Source of the DNA: an uncultured Alphaproteobacteria bacterium
GTDB lineage: Bacteria > Pseudomonadota > Alphaproteobacteria > Rhodobacterales > Rhodobacteraceae
Assembly: GCA_902560505.1 (NCBI GenBank)
Contig: CACELY010000006.1
Span: 1-46,379, forward strand
Direction of reading: 5' to 3'
Length of the DNA stretch: 46,379 nucleotides
In this document: in pieces, positions 6,911 to 14,568 of the stretch
Numbering within the stretch: position 1 is the first letter of the stretch
Layout of the letters: the number at the start of each line of letters is the position of its first letter
The notes under the pieces: generated by a model
Told to the model about the DNA's origin: nothing
Database searches by the model: none
Seen by the model: the letters and a program-made list of their open reading frames with translations, nothing else
Made by a program: the position numbers and the translations under genes

Positions 6911-7858
6911 TCAGCAATACTCAACAGTAACTCCTATGTTACGCATACCTTCTGTTAATACAGAAGCCAATTTATCTTGTCGGAACAAGTAAATCTTTTT
7001 CATTAAAAGGTCCTTTGTTAAATGGCAGGCCATGCTTAAGGCAAATTCTTTATTTAGAAACACATCGTTTTTGGAAAACCTACAGAGATCGGTTGGACAC
7101 CAAATACAATTAACACCTCCTTTCAACAAAAAAGCAACCTCAGTCTTACTTCGTGCTAATTTTAAATTTTTAAATTCTTTATTGAGCACATAAGCATTTT
7201 GTGCAACAGACATTGTCAGTATTTCGCTATCGGTTTCTGGACTCATTTCTGTGAAATCTTTATAGATCTCTGAAGGGCAGATAACCCAAGTCATTGTTGA
7301 AGTGGAAATAAATTCCTTTAAAAAACAAATATTTTTTTGTTGTAACATCCTATTCGAAATGAATAACAGACCAGCATTAGGAATCTTAGTCTTGATAACT
7401 AAATTATTCTTGTTAAGCAAATTCAAATTTGTTTTAGATGTATCTGGTTGAACCTTCGTTCTACTTATCTGAACCCCAAGCCTTCCCAGACCCCTATCTA
7501 GCTTTTCGAGACGCACAGTAGCCATAACCACACTATCTAAACATAAGCACGAAATAGCTATTTTCTCTGCTAATGTTTCTAGCAGTGCAACTCTTTTCTG
7601 ACCAATTTCATCCTCAATTACTTCAATTATATTGTCATATGATAATACTAAATCAACGTTATCATGCATTGGTTGATTATCGGTATTCACTTCCAAAATG
7701 ACATTGAAGGATACTCTTTGTTTAACACCATACTCTGGCTGAAAGGCGCCGATGTCTATCTCTCTTACATAGTCTCTTACTAAAATATGGTCTACATTCG
7801 CCTTTTTTTTTCCTCCTAGGTCAAGGAGGTCTTTTTTCTTAAATTCTTCACTAAACAA
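6911..7858 (-). CDS. folB: Dihydroneopterin aldolase with extra C-terminal domain
   Basis: Residues about 20-140 form a FolB domain, which cleaves dihydroneopterin to 6-hydroxymethyl-dihydropterin: IDIGAFQPEYGVKQRVSFNV, LSYDNIIEVIED, LLETLAEKIA and RLEKLDRGLGRLGVQISR match the tunnel-fold family, including the conserved Glu/Tyr region and the late lysine. FolB alone is about 120 residues; this protein has 315. The second half (about 150-315) has no motif I can name. It contains several Cys (CPTDLC, MACH, terminal EYC) and looks like an alternating alpha/beta domain. Long FolB forms are recalled from Rhodobacteraceae, so a lineage-specific fusion is more likely than an assembly artefact. It heads the folB-gph-folP-glmM run. 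Confidence 0.85.
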   Translation of the reverse strand: MFSEEFKKKDLLDLGGKKKANVDHILVRDYVREIDIGAFQPEYGVKQRVSFNVILEVNTDNQPMHDNVDLVLSYDNIIEVIEDEIGQKRVALLETLAEKIAISCLCLDSVVMATVRLEKLDRGLGRLGVQISRTKVQPDTSKTNLNLLNKNNLVIKTKIPNAGLLFISNRMLQQKNICFLKEFISTSTMTWVICPSEIYKDFTEMSPETDSEILTMSVAQNAYVLNKEFKNLKLARSKTEVAFLLKGGVNCIWCPTDLCRFSKNDVFLNKEFALSMACHLTKDLLMKKIYLFRQDKLASVLTEGMRNIGVTVEYC

Positions 7859-7891: not shown

Positions 7892-8590
7892 CTAATTTCT
7901 GTAAAATATATGTCTACCTATTTTTCTAGTCTTTTTAAATTTCTTTGACCAACTGGGACTTACTTCCGACGCATGAAAAAATGTTGCGCCGTTTGTTACA
8001 TCAGAAAAAGCACCATTTAATATCATCGATGAAAGCTTGACTATCCTTCTATAGGTTTTTTTGTCATAAATCAGTTCTAGTTTGCCATCACAATTGTACG
8101 AAAATTGACACGCATGTCTCTTATGTGCCCCCTCGGAAACGACCCCGCAAATAGTACCGGGGAATTGGCTAGAGTTTTTCCGATTGATAATTACATCGGC
8201 TACCGCAATTTGTCCCTCTATCTGTTCACCTCGTGCTTCAAAATACAAAGCCTCTGATAGGCATTTGAGTTCCCTATTCATCTTCGGCATTCGCATACTG
8301 TCGAGAGCTCCCTTAGAGAAAAATTGTTTTTCACTATTGTTCGATAAATATGCTCTATCATACGTAATCAGACCTGACAGTCTTGTTAAATAGTTATCAT
8401 CAATGCTATCAAGCCGTATCATTTCTTCTTCAATTGTTGTCCCCAAATTCACGATAACCGGACGGATACCCTCATTATCTTTCTTTTTCACGTTTGAATT
8501 TGTTTGCGCGAGAGCTAGGTGACTAATTAATAGAAAATACACGAATAAAATAGGCAATGATGTCCTTCTTTTAACAAATAAGTGTTTCAT
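7892..8590 (-). CDS. Cell wall hydrolase, SleB/CwlJ family, secreted
   Basis: A Hydrolase_2 (SleB) domain protein of 232 residues, predicted to act on peptidoglycan in the periplasm. The N-terminus is a signal peptide: basic MKHLFVKRR, then a hydrophobic stretch, with likely cleavage after LALAQ near residue 29. The catalytic domain covers about 108-232: LSEALYFEARGE with the catalytic Glu, QIAVADVIINRKNSSQFP, GVVSEGAHKRHACQFSYNCDG and the C-terminal NGATFFHA. In spore formers SleB cleaves cortex; in alphaproteobacteria the related proteins are general wall hydrolases with little functional characterisation. It lies 14 bases downstream of the ppdK-like gene, a neighbourhood recalled from Rhodobacterales. 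Confidence 0.85.
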   Translation of the reverse strand: MKHLFVKRRTSLPILFVYFLLISHLALAQTNSNVKKKDNEGIRPVIVNLGTTIEEEMIRLDSIDDNYLTRLSGLITYDRAYLSNNSEKQFFSKGALDSMRMPKMNRELKCLSEALYFEARGEQIEGQIAVADVIINRKNSSQFPGTICGVVSEGAHKRHACQFSYNCDGKLELIYDKKTYRRIVKLSSMILNGAFSDVTNGATFFHASEVSPSWSKKFKKTRKIGRHIFYRN

Positions 8591-8604: not shown

Positions 8605-11154
8605 CTAGTTTAAATTTCTTATTCTTGATTGAGCCGCGGCCAACCTAGCTATCGGCACTCTATAAGGCGAACATGATATGTATTCAAAACCAACAGAGCG
8701 ACAAAAACTAATGGATGTCGGATCACCACCATGCTCACCGCACAAGCCTGTTACTATCTTTGAATTTGTATTTCTAGCTCTTTGAACTGCTATTTTAAGC
8801 AATTCACCCACACCCTCGACATCAATAGTTTTGAAGGGGTCGCCATTAAAAAGTCCTTTCTCTATATACTCTTTCATAAATCTATTAGAGTCATCTCTAC
8901 TCAAGCCATACGTCATTTGAGTTAAGTCATTTGTACCAAAACTCAAAAAATCACAGGATTGCGCAATGTCACCCGCTCTTAGCGCAGCTCTGGGAGTTTC
9001 AACCATTACTCCTAACTTATATTTAAGATCTACAAAATTGTTCTTATTTAATTGTGAAAAAACTTCTCTAATTCTATCTCTCACCAAATCAACTTCTTTA
9101 TTAGCGGAAATTAATGGTATCATAATTTCGGGATTTACTACTATTTTGTATTTCTCGAAAACCTCAATGGCCGCCAGAAAAATAGCTTGCACCTGCATAT
9201 CATATATCTCGGGAACCATCACACCAAGCCTCACCCCTCTTGTACCCAACATGGGATTGAACTCAGATAGATCTTTAATGCGATCAGCTAGTTGCTGTTC
9301 CGTCATCGCCATAAGATTTGCCGTCCTCTGAATTTCTTGTTGTGAATTTGGAAGAAACTCATGCAGAGGCGGATCTAAAAGCCTTATAGTCACAGGAAGG
9401 TTGGACATCTCTTTAAATAGGTCGATAAAATCTTCTTTCTGTATCGGCAGAAGCCTCTCAATTATTGATCCTCTTTCCTTATCACTGTTAGTGAGTATCA
9501 TTTGTCTAACTAGATTTATGCGATTGGAATCGGTGAACATGTGCTCCGTTCTACATAGGCCGATCCCATCTACTTCATAAAAAAGCGCTACTCGGGCATC
9601 TTCCACCGTATCAGCGTTTGCTCTTATTTGAATATCACAGAACTCATCAGCCCATTGCAAAAGTGTGCTAAACGTGCTTGTGGTCTCAGGTGGTCTTAGT
9701 TTTACTTTTTCAAGATATATGGCGCCTGTAGAACCATCTATTGTAATTTCATCGCCCTCGGATATTACATTGCCATCCTCTAATATCAGTAATTTTTCCT
9801 GTTCCTTAAAAACCACATTTCTTGTTCCTACGATACATGGTATTCCCATTCCTCTAGCTATAACGGCAGCATGGCTAGTCATCCCTCCTTTTACTGTTAA
9901 TACACCTTTTGATAGAGACATAGCATTGATGTCATCAGATATAGTCTCGGTCTTAATTAATATTGCATCAGTTTCAGTCGAGTTATATTGAATAACTTTA
10001 TTAGTAGACATAGCTACCCTTCCAGAGGCAGCCCCTGGGCTTGCTGGCACTCCCAAAAGTGCAACTTTCGGTTTTATATCTTCCGATACCGATGGATGAA
10101 GAAAAATATCTAGGTATTCAGGGTTAATTAGCAACAGTCCATCTTCTTTTTCAATTATATTTTCCTGAACTGATGTAACAACAAACTCAATAAACTTCTT
10201 ATGAGGTAATATTACCTCTTTTAAACCAATCAAAAACAATGTGTCGCCATCTAACAGAAAACTTACCTCTAATGGTGACTTAACTTTTTTTGTCAAACTC
10301 TCAATCAAACTAGGCAATGAATTAGGTTTGGGTACTTTGCTAACCTCCTCTTTGCTAACCGGGTTGAAAGCCGACTTTTTATCACTTTTATCTAATCGAA
10401 AGCACTGATAGCTTGACTTTCCTATATTATCATCAAAGTTCTTAACTTTAAAATATTCCACTGGCTTGTCTTCAATACCAAAGTGCATTTCTTGTAGAAT
10501 TATTGGTATTAACTCCTCACTCTTCCTACCACTGACATCCCGAAGTATTTTCTGAGTAGGACTAATCCAACCTTTATAAATTGAGGTGATTACTTCTATT
10601 AATTGCTCTGAAATATTTCTTGGAAAAGTTGAACCAGTTTCTAATGAGATTAATTTTTTTATCCTGCTAATTTGATCAGGACTGCCTTCTTCAAAAACGG
10701 ATTCTGGCCTTTTTGGATTTTCTAATAATCGGCGAAGTTCATCACAGGTTTCAAGATCTATATTATATACAGTCGAAGAAAACATTCCAAGAAAGCTAAA
10801 GTAAATCTGTGATGCCTTTCTAATCCCTACCGTCTTTTTAAGGATCTCATAACTGCGATCGTCAAGCCCAATATAAAGAAATGGCTCATTTTTTAGGGAA
10901 AGATCTATAACTGGACTAGGCCTGATTACCAATAATTTGTTCTTAAAGTGTGAGAGAATTTCAGCTGGAACGCATTTTTTCTCAAATATTTCTTTAACCA
11001 ATTCACCAGAAAGGAATACTGTATCAGGCACAGGAAACTGCCACTTTTTAGCCAAGCTGAGGTTGCACGCTTTGTACCCAAACTCATCTATTTTTTTTTG
11101 ATCATCTGGTATCTCATTAAATAAATATCTAGAGCTTAAATTTGTATCATTCAT
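8605..11154 (-). CDS. ppdK: Pyruvate phosphate dikinase-like protein with degenerate ATP-grasp half
   Basis: PPDK interconverts pyruvate, ATP and phosphate with PEP, AMP and PPi through a phosphohistidine. The C-terminal two thirds are intact: swivel domain with the phosphorylated His428 in GGMTSHAAVIARGMG, and a PEP/pyruvate barrel with GLCRTEHMF, RLLDPPLHEFLP, GTRGVRLGV, VMVETPRAAL, SFGTNDLTQ and the acid/base Cys805 in GLCGEHGGDP. The N-terminal half is eroded: the region matching the VRSGA...GMMDT motif reads VIRPSPVIDL, the usual GTGVAFTRNP loop and INAQGEDVVAG region are unrecognisable, and the DIEFT...LYMLQTR ATP site reads LEVSFLLDGDTLFLIGLKE. Length (849) is slightly below the usual 870-890. 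It overlaps glyS by ATGA. A normal dikinase reaction is uncertain. Confidence 0.82.
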   Translation of the reverse strand: MNDTNLSSRYLFNEIPDDQKKIDEFGYKACNLSLAKKWQFPVPDTVFLSGELVKEIFEKKCVPAEILSHFKNKLLVIRPSPVIDLSLKNEPFLYIGLDDRSYEILKKTVGIRKASQIYFSFLGMFSSTVYNIDLETCDELRRLLENPKRPESVFEEGSPDQISRIKKLISLETGSTFPRNISEQLIEVITSIYKGWISPTQKILRDVSGRKSEELIPIILQEMHFGIEDKPVEYFKVKNFDDNIGKSSYQCFRLDKSDKKSAFNPVSKEEVSKVPKPNSLPSLIESLTKKVKSPLEVSFLLDGDTLFLIGLKEVILPHKKFIEFVVTSVQENIIEKEDGLLLINPEYLDIFLHPSVSEDIKPKVALLGVPASPGAASGRVAMSTNKVIQYNSTETDAILIKTETISDDINAMSLSKGVLTVKGGMTSHAAVIARGMGIPCIVGTRNVVFKEQEKLLILEDGNVISEGDEITIDGSTGAIYLEKVKLRPPETTSTFSTLLQWADEFCDIQIRANADTVEDARVALFYEVDGIGLCRTEHMFTDSNRINLVRQMILTNSDKERGSIIERLLPIQKEDFIDLFKEMSNLPVTIRLLDPPLHEFLPNSQQEIQRTANLMAMTEQQLADRIKDLSEFNPMLGTRGVRLGVMVPEIYDMQVQAIFLAAIEVFEKYKIVVNPEIMIPLISANKEVDLVRDRIREVFSQLNKNNFVDLKYKLGVMVETPRAALRAGDIAQSCDFLSFGTNDLTQMTYGLSRDDSNRFMKEYIEKGLFNGDPFKTIDVEGVGELLKIAVQRARNTNSKIVTGLCGEHGGDPTSISFCRSVGFEYISCSPYRVPIARLAAAQSRIRNLN

Positions 11155-13208
11155 TTTTTGTCCAATTCCGAAAATACTACAACTCTATCCATAGTTTCCC
11201 GAATTTGATTCAAAAATGAATATCGTAAAATCCGGAGCGCATTATCTTCACAATTAATTTGCACATTATCAAGAAACTGATTGACAGAATCCACCATTGA
11301 ATTCAATTCAATAAGAGCAGTCTTGAAATCTTTGCGTTTCAAGCTGCCTTCTACTTGCTCTTTGGTTAACATCAATTGTTTTTGTACTAATTTATCTTCT
11401 TCAGTTGCAGTTTCTTTAGAAAATTCTTTCTCAGCACCTAAGACCTCTTGATTAGAACTTAAGAAATTAGAAACTCTCTTGTAGACTGCTAAAACCCTTA
11501 CCCCAGAATTGGAAGAAATAAATGCATTTATCTGAGCTATCATATCCGGCAAGATGGGCAAAAAATCTAGCTTGTAATGCTCGACCACTGCCTGTACCAC
11601 CTTTTTTTGATAATTTTTTTCTGTAAGGTAATATACTATTCTTTCTTTTAAAAAGCGCTGCAAAGAGGGCTTATCAAAATTATCCTCCGCTAGGTCAATC
11701 AAGTAATCTAAATCAATATCTAACTTGTTCTCTAGTATTATTCTTATTATCGCCAAAGCTGCTCTCCTTAAAGCAAAGGGATCTTTATTTCCAGTAGGCC
11801 TAATACCAATCTTCCAAAGGGAGGTTAAATAATCAATTTTATCACTGATTGAGAGCACGATTGAAAGCGGGTGTTTTGGAACGACATCGTTGGAACCAAC
11901 GGGAAGATAATGATCTCGGATCGCGTCAGCTACCACTTTTTTAAAACCCTCAGCTTTAGCATAATGAGCCCCCATTATACCCTGCAAAGAAGGAAACTCT
12001 GCTACAACGTTAGAAACAAGGTCAGCCTTGATAAGTGTTGCAGCCTTACTTACCTCATCCCTTTCGAGTTCAAATTGCCCGGCAAGTATTGCAGAAATCT
12101 TCACTATTCTTTCTACTCTATTATACTGAGAGCCCAACTTTTCATGAAATTTAACACTTTTCAATTTATCATTCCAGGCCATCATTCCATGATGTTTCAC
12201 CAGATCTAGATCATTTTGATAAAAGAAAATAGCATCTTTTAATCTTGAATTTAAAACCCGCATATTGCCAGAAAGAATGGTTTTTTGTTGATCATGAGTT
12301 TTTAAATCAGTAACCACCAAAAATCCTTCAACCTTACCGTTAGTACTACTTCTTAGAGACAAGAACTTTTGATGCTCTCTCATAGAAGAGATAATCACTT
12401 CTTCAGGTATGGAAAGTAATTCTTCGGGAATCTTGCCTAGTAAGGGAACCGGAAATTCTGTTAACCCGACTATTTCCTCTAAAAGTTTATCATCCTCAAT
12501 TAAATAATATCCTCTAGCTTCAGCTAGTTTCTTACCTTCTTGGACAATTATTTTTTTACGATCCTGAGGCTGGAGGATAACTTTACCGTTTGCAATCTTT
12601 TCCTGATAATCGTTGATAGATTTAAAATCAAAAAACTCTGGATGCATCACATGATGTGCTCTGGTAACAATATCTGATTCAATATCTCTTACATGCAAGG
12701 GTACTCTTTCCCGTTTCTCATTTTCAAAAAGAACAGCAGTTATACTTCTAAGTGGTCTAACCCACTTGAGAGAATAATTATCGCCCCAGTACATAGATTT
12801 TGGCCAATTAAACTCTTGAATAATCTCGGTAAAAATCCGCGATAAAATGGTTGATAAGGGTTGAGTATTTATCTTTAAAGTGTAAACATAGAATGATCCC
12901 TTAGTAGTTTTTTTTTCTTGTAGATCGGTTCTCTGGATCTTATTTTTTTTCAAAAAACCATTGATTGCATTTGCAGGTGCTCCCAACCTAGGTCCACGTA
13001 TTTCTTTGATGCTTTCCTTCACTTCAATTGATATATTTTCGAGAATAATTCCCAATCTCGTTGGTGTGACAAAAGGGACCATTCCAACAAAAATCAAACC
13101 GTTTTCATTAACTTTTTTTAAAGTTAAGACTTCCAGTTGACGCATAGCGTGTGCTTGCATTTTTGCAGGTATCTCTTCAGAGATCAGTTCCAATATAAAA
13201 TCGTTCAA
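11151..13208 (-). CDS. glyS: Glycyl-tRNA synthetase beta subunit
   Basis: GlyS is the tRNA-recognising beta subunit of the bacterial alpha2beta2 glycyl-tRNA synthetase. The 685 residues match the usual 690 or so. Recognisable blocks are LLELISEEIPAKMQ at the N-terminus (here FILELISEEIPAKMQ), GPRLGAPANAINGFLKKN, FNWPKSMYWG, FVRPLR-type VRPLRSI, REHQKFLSL, the HD-like segment LIKADLVSNVVAEFPSLQG, and TGNKDPFALRRAALAIIRI. It follows the DUF6446-like gene by 2 bases and overlaps the ppdK-like gene by four (ATGA). With glyQ 450 bases upstream this makes a complete glyQ-X-glyS unit. Confidence 0.97.
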   Translation of the reverse strand: MNDFILELISEEIPAKMQAHAMRQLEVLTLKKVNENGLIFVGMVPFVTPTRLGIILENISIEVKESIKEIRGPRLGAPANAINGFLKKNKIQRTDLQEKKTTKGSFYVYTLKINTQPLSTILSRIFTEIIQEFNWPKSMYWGDNYSLKWVRPLRSITAVLFENEKRERVPLHVRDIESDIVTRAHHVMHPEFFDFKSINDYQEKIANGKVILQPQDRKKIIVQEGKKLAEARGYYLIEDDKLLEEIVGLTEFPVPLLGKIPEELLSIPEEVIISSMREHQKFLSLRSSTNGKVEGFLVVTDLKTHDQQKTILSGNMRVLNSRLKDAIFFYQNDLDLVKHHGMMAWNDKLKSVKFHEKLGSQYNRVERIVKISAILAGQFELERDEVSKAATLIKADLVSNVVAEFPSLQGIMGAHYAKAEGFKKVVADAIRDHYLPVGSNDVVPKHPLSIVLSISDKIDYLTSLWKIGIRPTGNKDPFALRRAALAIIRIILENKLDIDLDYLIDLAEDNFDKPSLQRFLKERIVYYLTEKNYQKKVVQAVVEHYKLDFLPILPDMIAQINAFISSNSGVRVLAVYKRVSNFLSSNQEVLGAEKEFSKETATEEDKLVQKQLMLTKEQVEGSLKRKDFKTALIELNSMVDSVNQFLDNVQINCEDNALRILRYSFLNQIRETMDRVVVFSELDKK

Positions 13209-13210
13209 CT

Positions 13211-13654
13211 CTATTCTTTCTTATACTTAGTATTTAATTGCCTCCAACGATAACTTCTTCCATCTGGATAAATAGCTATTACATCGTCAATGCCGTCAAA
13301 CTCTTCTCTTTTTATTAAAAAGGCAGATGCTTTACCATTTTCTAAATCTTTTGTTATTCTTTCAGCATTAAAACACTTAAACCAAAAAGGTGCGGTAAGG
13401 GGTGTTGGTTTCTCGTATTTAGGAAGACTAATATCATCCAATATATCGACAACAAAGCATTCTCTGAGCTTTAAACCTGAACTTTCAGAATCTATTCCTT
13501 GATAGTAGGAAATTTCATACCTCTTCTCACCTAATAAAATATTTTGCCTAATATCTATTGAGTCATAGTAGGCATAATTTTGAAAGTAAAACAACGCCCC
13601 TGTAAAAATGACAACACTAGATAAAAATAAAGTAATGAAACGTCTTCCGTTCAT
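13211..13654 (-). CDS. Membrane-anchored protein between glyQ and glyS, DUF6446-like
   Basis: A 147-residue protein of unknown function. One N-terminal transmembrane helix (about 7-25, TLFLSSVVIFTGALFYF) is followed by NYAYYDSIDI and a soluble, probably periplasmic domain with a conserved-looking Cys pair region (LRECFVVD, WFKCFNAE) and KYEKPTPLTAPFWFKC. From memory this matches the DUF6446 family, which occupies the same position between glyQ and glyS in Rhodobacterales; that assignment needs a profile search. It overlaps the glyQ stop by one base (TAATG) and ends 2 bases before glyS, so it must be co-translated with the synthetase subunits, yet nothing in it suggests a tRNA role. Confidence 0.75.
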   Translation of the reverse strand: MNGRRFITLFLSSVVIFTGALFYFQNYAYYDSIDIRQNILLGEKRYEISYYQGIDSESSGLKLRECFVVDILDDISLPKYEKPTPLTAPFWFKCFNAERITKDLENGKASAFLIKREEFDGIDDVIAIYPDGRSYRWRQLNTKYKKE

Positions 13655-14568
13655 TATACTCTCAATGAAACTTCATCTATATAGGCATCTGCACACAACT
13701 TAGCCAATGCTCTTACTCGGCCAATATATACTTGACGTTGGGCGGTAGAAATTACTCCTCTTGAGTCAAGTACATTAAATAGGTGTGAAGCTTTTATACA
13801 CTGATCGTATGCAGGTTGGACAAGAATATTTTTTTTTGACGAGGACTTCTCCTCGAGGTCCCCCATTCCTAGTATTTCTTGACATATTTTCTCTGCATCA
13901 TCGAAATGGCGAAAAATAATTTCTGTGTTTGCAACATTAAAATTCCACTCACTATACTGCTTTTCTGCTTTGAGAAAAATATCTGAGTATTTTATTGGTC
14001 TTTGACTATTTGGGGAATTGTAAGGTAAATTCATCACAGATTCACACTCCAAAATAAACATTGCAAGTCTTTCGAGACCATAAGTAATCTCTCCTGTAAC
14101 CGGTTTGCAATCATGTCCCCCTACTTGTTGGAAGTAAGTGAATTGACTAATCTCCATACCGTCACACCAAACTTCCCAACCTAGTCCCCATGCACCCAAC
14201 GTAGGACTTTCCCAGTCGTCCTCTACGAATCTGATATCGTGTACTTTGTTATCAATACCCAGAACCTTTAAACTTTCCAGGTACATTTCTTTAAACATTA
14301 TAGGTGAAGGCTTCATAACAACTTGGAACTGATAATAGTGTTGCAATCGATTAGGGCTATCTCCATAACGACCATCAGAGGGTCGCCGACAGGGTTGGAC
14401 ATAAGCAGCTGACCAATGATCGGGGCCTAAGCTCCTTAAGGTTGTCGCTGGATGAAAAGTTCCTGCTCCTACTTCCAAATCGTAAGGCTGCAGAACAACG
14501 CACCCCTTTTCAGACCAAAATTTCTGTAGCAATAAAATGATTTGTTGAAAACAATCTGGCTTTTGCAT
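13654..14568 (-). CDS. glyQ: Glycyl-tRNA synthetase alpha subunit
   Basis: GlyQ is the catalytic alpha subunit that makes glycyl-adenylate and charges tRNA-Gly with GlyS. The 304 residues show the highly conserved family sequence: [104 protein letters not shown] and [11 protein letters not shown]. These include class II motifs 1-3. It starts with ATG 46 bases downstream of folE. The stop codon overlaps the following small membrane gene by one base. Confidence 0.98.

Follow-up and report, generated by a model that had tools for sequence, protein, structure and literature searches.

Pyruvate phosphate dikinase (PPDK) has been placed at the phosphoenolpyruvate (PEP)-pyruvate node in published metabolic models and flux studies of roseobacters (PMC2761930, PMC2749216, PMC3789786), which together with their relatives form a major marine group. 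Using 13C, zero flux from pyruvate to PEP was found in D. shibae and P. gallaeciensis, both of which carry an annotated ppdK (PMC2761930), and in R. denitrificans this flux was weak and ppdK expression low (PMC2749216). In the metabolic model of D. shibae, PPDK was run in reverse in all states. The predicted GapR regulon of Rhodobacteraceae contains pckA and pycA for gluconeogenesis, without ppdK, and the GluR regulon of Caulobacter includes ppdK (PMC4052901). SPO1359 of R. pomeroyi is ppdK by annotation. A PPDK derivative without dikinase activity has been described in Mycobacterium tuberculosis, an organism without PPDK flux, in which VadK (Rv1127c) is a PPDK-derived histidine kinase (PMC13400623).

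Here we describe a PPDK-like gene in a 46,379-nucleotide stretch of DNA (contig CACELY010000006.1 of assembly GCA_902560505.1; the window) from an uncultured alphaproteobacterium of the Rhodobacteraceae. The order glyQ-glyS-PPDK found in the window (Table 1) was also found at six canonical outgroup loci and at the sole canonical Rhodobacteraceae copy (genome G086), usually with sleB downstream. As this order is common to all of them, the PPDK-like gene is by position orthologous to canonical PPDK and not a separate paralogue. In the 849-residue protein Pfam detected the PEP-utilizers and PEP-utilizers_C domains, no Enzyme I N-terminal (HPr-binding) domain and, even at E ≤ 1, no PPDK_N (PF01326), for which canonical alphaproteobacterial PPDKs score 176-208 bits. 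The best-matched PDB chains were PPDKs. Against NCBIfam TIGR01828 the protein scored 730.6 bits, below the curated cut-off of 843.45, compared with 1091-1386 bits for canonical sequences; main-clade relatives (816-872 bits) straddle the cut-off, which is why some of them are automatically named PPDK.

Table 1. Features of the PPDK-like gene and its neighbours in the window.
Feature	Position	Strand	Details
SleB-type cell wall hydrolase	7892..8590	-	PF07486; 14 nt downstream of the PPDK-like ORF; synteny
PPDK-like ORF, 849 aa	8605..11154	-	Stop codon included in span; ATG start
N-terminal half, aa 1-349	10108..11154	-	Predicted ATP-grasp fold without ATP-site signature
Lys28 codon (PPDK Lys22)	11071..11073	-	Kept in the window's genus; Arg in most other Rhodobacteraceae
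aa 78-95, RPSPVIDLSLKNEPFLYI	10870..10923	-	In place of RSGARxSMPGMMDTVLNL; Arg78 = Arg92, kept
aa 296-312, EVSFLLDGDTLFLIGLK	10219..10269	-	In place of DIEFTxxxxxLxMLQTR; Asp321, Glu323, Gln335, Arg337 all changed
Phosphohistidine swivel domain, aa 350-490	9685..10107	-	PF00391, E=9e-21; dN/dS 0.052
His428 codon	9871..9873	-	Phosphorylated His of GGMTSHAAV
PEP/pyruvate-binding barrel, aa 491-849	8608..9684	-	PF02896, E=4e-71; dN/dS 0.046
Cys805 codon (PPDK Cys831, acid/base)	8740..8742	-	Alignment with canonical PPDK
glyS	11151..13208	-	PF02092; 4-nt overlap with the PPDK-like start; synteny
DUF6446 protein, between glyQ and glyS	13211..13654	-	PF20044
glyQ	13654..14568	-	PF02091

The assignment of ATP-contacting residues in Clostridium symbiosum PPDK is reportedly that of Ye et al. 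2001 (cited in PMC13400623). For PPDK, the contact made by Lys22 has been described (PMC4844700). When aligned with canonical and C. symbiosum PPDK, the window protein had replaced Met103, Asp105, Thr106, Asp321 (E296), Glu323 (S298), Gln335 (G310) and Arg337 (K312), with MPGMMDT reading SLKNEPF, and the only checked ATP-site residues still in place were Lys22 (K28) and Arg92 (R78). A previous reading of the DNA from its sequence alone (the sequence-only reading) had claimed that the ATP-binding half lost its signature motifs, including the Gln and Arg contacts. The motifs were found as quoted, both contacts are gone, and the alignment revealed no ATP contacts at shifted positions, the two that remain being where they were expected. 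Since identity to canonical PPDK in this half is only ~18%, the register of single residues is surer in strands than in loops.

The predicted fold of PPDK's nucleotide-binding domain is nevertheless kept. A profile of 15 relatives aligned co-linearly with C. symbiosum PPDK (1kbl; residues 24-349 to chain positions 17-373, E=6e-35), and the AlphaFold2 model of residues 1-349 (pLDDT 82, pTM 0.82) matched PPDK nucleotide-binding domains in Foldseek at 15-17% identity and TMq values as high as 0.77; the best structural match of the full-length predicted model was also PPDK. By predicted fold and by descent, the N-terminal half is still an ATP-grasp domain, with its catalytic residues gone. As Lys22 and Arg92 are present, some weak nucleotide binding may persist.

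These two residues and the retained fold would be compatible with a protein that is still a dikinase or kinase, working with another nucleotide or with ATP in a rebuilt site, as would the main clade of the family, which has a conserved Gly-rich loop (WGGPGA), Glu323 in 81/92 sequences and Asp in place of Gln335. However, we consider such an enzyme improbable, because the window's genus has lost the loop along with Asp321, Glu323, Gln335 and Arg337, and the PPDK regulator PDRP is absent from it. PDRP was found in 9/12 PPDK-bearing outgroup genomes and in 9/200 Rhodobacteraceae genomes, all nine of the latter having weaker-matching, basal-type orthologues and none a well-matching main-clade one. 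In two Amylibacter-type sequences the phosphohistidine loop reads GGRDSHAAV, in which Asp replaces the Thr that would be the target of PDRP and the His is kept.

The sequence-only reading had presented one odd protein; the oddity is real but it is not isolated, being a trait found throughout the Rhodobacteraceae, of which the window's genus is the most diverged branch. In other alphaproteobacterial families M103, Q335 and R337 were present in 71/72 sequences (71/71 readable, the exception being a mis-chosen ORF that was left out of the count), compared with 1/92, 1/92 and 5/92 in Rhodobacteraceae outside the genus and 0/13, 0/13 and 1/13 within it. The ATP site is gone from 91 of these 92 sequences and from all 13. 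The checked His/PEP residues (eight counted, among them H455, R561, R617, E745, N768, D769 and C831) were retained in 92/92 Rhodobacteraceae; in the genus the phosphohistidine and the PEP-site Arg, Glu, Asn and Asp were present in 13/13 sequences and the Cys in 12/13, one sequence ending early. Alignment, Pfam and these counts thus agree with the earlier claim that the phosphohistidine loop (His428) and Cys805 are kept.

A main-clade orthologue used as probe had matches in 199 of the 200 Rhodobacteraceae genomes sampled, but in three the match was distant and PtsP-type, and a true orthologue (E=0 to 1e-172) was found in about 196 and missing from four (G125, G131, G152, G156). In a class-wide search the variant occurred in no alphaproteobacterial family besides Rhodobacteraceae, with outside hits reaching at most 738 bits vs about 1300 for members. 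In the open-access literature we found no report of an ATP-site-less PPDK in Rhodobacteraceae. The orthologue matches of five Rhodobacteraceae genomes carry one or two in-frame stops. The search for a second, canonical ppdK that the sequence-only reading had proposed returned none from the window's own genome (71% complete), and the 21 genus relatives likewise yielded no additional PPDK. PPDK_N was detected in 61/200 Rhodobacteraceae genomes, where most hits lie in separate proteins about as long as PEP synthase. Several Rhodobacteraceae genomes (G214, G107, G147, G209, G055 and others) also have ORFs of 820-1364 aa with a partial PPDK_N that are unlike PPDK or PpsA, and these are possibly other ATP-grasp/His phosphotransferases. 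Such weak partial PPDK_N ORFs (820-1360 aa) were rejected as canonical PPDK copies, as only G086 was shown to have a canonical glyS-linked PPDK; the examples from G043 and G049 matched the probe over about 80-100 residues only.

In a tree of the His/PEP half, for which the branch order is without statistical support values, G086 and several intermediates were placed near the base of the Rhodobacteraceae, and two more degenerate sequences, from G210 and G053, fell outside the family. Three of the intermediates (L113, L114, L117) have kept K22, the FTR arginine and an acidic residue. The basal intermediates and outlying degenerate sequences suggest that the ATP site was lost stepwise and may have been lost more than once. 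Four basal Rhodobacteraceae PPDK-like sequences (L120 and L121, from G210 and G053, and L255 and L256) show a different, possibly independent ATP-site loss, and no glyS was detected within about 15 kb around them.

Another PPDK-like copy without the ATP signature, annotated ppdK_2, lies on a plasmid of Paracoccaceae bacterium La 6 (CP031587.1; L250:3977-6499), directly downstream of a folB-like gene and folA, near formate dehydrogenase genes and away from glyS. FolB (dihydroneopterin aldolase) of the window, at 6911-7858 on the minus strand, has a C-terminal extension of ~180 aa without a Pfam match; the alignment with the plasmid FolB reaches into this extension, which looks conserved in Rhodobacteraceae. 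The neighbouring folB and folP, and the plasmid copy beside folB and folA, had prompted a folate link in which the PPDK-like protein replaces the pyrophosphokinase FolK. This was rejected, since FolK itself was found in the window's genome and in most genomes of the genus, and adjacency to folB is also inconstant among ATP-site-less copies.

Selection differs strongly between the two halves of the protein. Among 12 genus members, residues 1-345 had a dN/dS (NG86) of 0.198, the His domain one of 0.052 and the PEP domain one of 0.046, alongside 0.076 for glyQ, 0.087 for glmM and 0.145 for glyS; the pairwise values are non-independent, and the contrast between the N half and the His and PEP domains is about fourfold. 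Judged by these ratios, purifying selection in the genus is very strong on the PEP half and much weaker on the ATP half, in line with the earlier claim of divergence and not simple decay. The strong divergence of the N half, the in-frame stops in a few relatives and the absence of the gene from 4/200 genomes could point to a decaying, functionless gene retained through its operon position. We find this scarcely credible, given that dN/dS near 1 was not seen, that no operon segment measured has a lower dN/dS than the PEP domain and that intact copies occur in almost every genome of a family that has itself diverged widely.

The N half of main-clade sequences is conserved to the extent seen in canonical PPDK (mean pairwise identity 0.64 vs 0.66), and 33 of its positions have switched to a new conserved residue, of which the window's genus has only five. 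Conservation around so many switched positions, so few of them in the genus, suggests that in most Rhodobacteraceae the N domain has taken up a new role, and that in the genus it was remodelled or relaxed again. The rebuilt N-terminal domain of most Rhodobacteraceae may bind a new ligand. As most of the rebuilt residues were lost again in the genus, the function common to the family probably sits in the His and PEP domains.

Building on the orthology, ATP-site loss, PEP/His-site retention and purifying selection that the sequences establish, we favour, with a probability of about two in three, a former glyS-linked PPDK that lost its ATP/Pi half-reaction and is most likely still a PEP-charged phosphohistidine protein, acting as a phosphate donor or a PEP/pyruvate reporter. 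Following vertical inheritance of the alphaproteobacterial glyS-linked PPDK, the ATP/Pi half-reaction would have been lost, and the remaining reaction, PEP + His428 <-> pyruvate + phospho-His428, would still run, with PEP phosphorylating His428 and pyruvate being released, as the residues checked for this half-reaction are retained. Phospho-His428 could then pass its phosphate to a partner, by an Enzyme I-like logic, or the phosphorylation state itself could report the PEP/pyruvate ratio. The kept His-domain linkers and ATP-grasp fold suggest that the swivel still exists. There is good support for a window protein that has ceased to be a dikinase, by divergence and not by decay, and the interpretation given in the sequence-only reading is borne out in part. 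Of the options it had put forward, another acceptor and a PEP sensor both stand; a protein with no function at all is less likely, as no sequence measured in the operon is under tighter constraint than the His/PEP half.

HPr was absent from the own genome and from 21/22 genomes of the genus, which are incomplete single-cell and metagenome assemblies, and no other PPDK/EI-family protein was found in the genus outside one genome (G011). With both missing, the genus has no known phosphoacceptor system. HPr was accordingly rejected as the acceptor, being absent from the genus apart from G011. That genome alone has HPr together with an Enzyme I-like ORF, both on one contig (C2), which may be real or contamination. 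These absences would fit a PEP/pyruvate sensor or scaffold that binds PEP, may autophosphorylate and controls a partner through contact, passing no phosphate on, as would the weakly constrained N half of the genus (dN/dS 0.198), which has no conserved new pocket in common with the main clade. We regard this as rather unlikely, because all checked residues of phosphotransfer catalysis are kept and pure binding would not need them. Extending the PEP-charged phosphohistidine protein to the whole family is more tentative: the Rhodobacteraceae may possibly have turned the one PPDK they had into a phosphohistidine enzyme that is driven by PEP and has taken on a new acceptor or a role in signalling, with its ATP domain rebuilt (33 positions) in most members and remodelled again in the marine genus. 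PEP-dependent phosphotransfer or signalling of this kind would be previously undescribed and would occur in nearly every member of the family.

ATP-PEPCK was detected in 18/22 and pyruvate kinase in 20/22 genomes of the window's genus, so that gluconeogenesis and glycolysis there can do without the PPDK-like protein. In this marine bacterium and almost all other Rhodobacteraceae, the protein annotated as pyruvate phosphate dikinase probably works as a PEP-fed phosphate carrier or sensor, and metabolic models in which annotated ppdK yields PEP or ATP are likely to be in error. The published flux data are supportive, not decisive, since they come mainly from glucose-grown cells, in which little gluconeogenic flux is expected, and the ATP-site-less type is assigned to the strains studied from its family-wide distribution, not from their sequences. 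If the protein does not use ATP, PPDK reactions are to be dropped from models, and zero pyruvate-to-PEP flux is simply explained. That the PEP/His half is so strictly conserved argues for a PEP-dependent process that is accessible in culturable roseobacters, and the family-wide switch provides a natural case of a two-site enzyme in which one half-reaction was lost and the other kept.

Compared with known systems, the window protein has in common with canonical, glyS-linked PPDK (EC 2.7.9.1; TIGR01828) its gene position, three-domain architecture, phosphohistidine loop, PEP/pyruvate site and the predicted fold of the three domains; it differs in lacking the ATP/Pi site, in falling under the TIGR01828 cut-off and in belonging to a genus without PDRP. 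Rifampin phosphotransferase and PEP synthase belong to the same domain superfamily with a swivelling His, but they keep a working ATP-grasp domain and are only distant matches to the window protein. PTS Enzyme I and PtsP resemble it in PEP-dependent His phosphorylation, which on the window's side is read from sequence, and in homologous His and PEP domains, whereas the window protein has no HPr-binding domain, has the domain order of PPDK and comes from a genus with HPr in one genome only. Like VadK, it is a PPDK derivative without dikinase chemistry that has kept, besides the phosphohistidine domain, a single substrate domain out of two. Where a VadK-type protein combines a working ATP domain with an absent PEP domain, the window protein is the opposite: VadK is its mirror image, having kept the ATP domain and lost the PEP domain, while the window protein keeps the PEP domain and has lost the ATP site.
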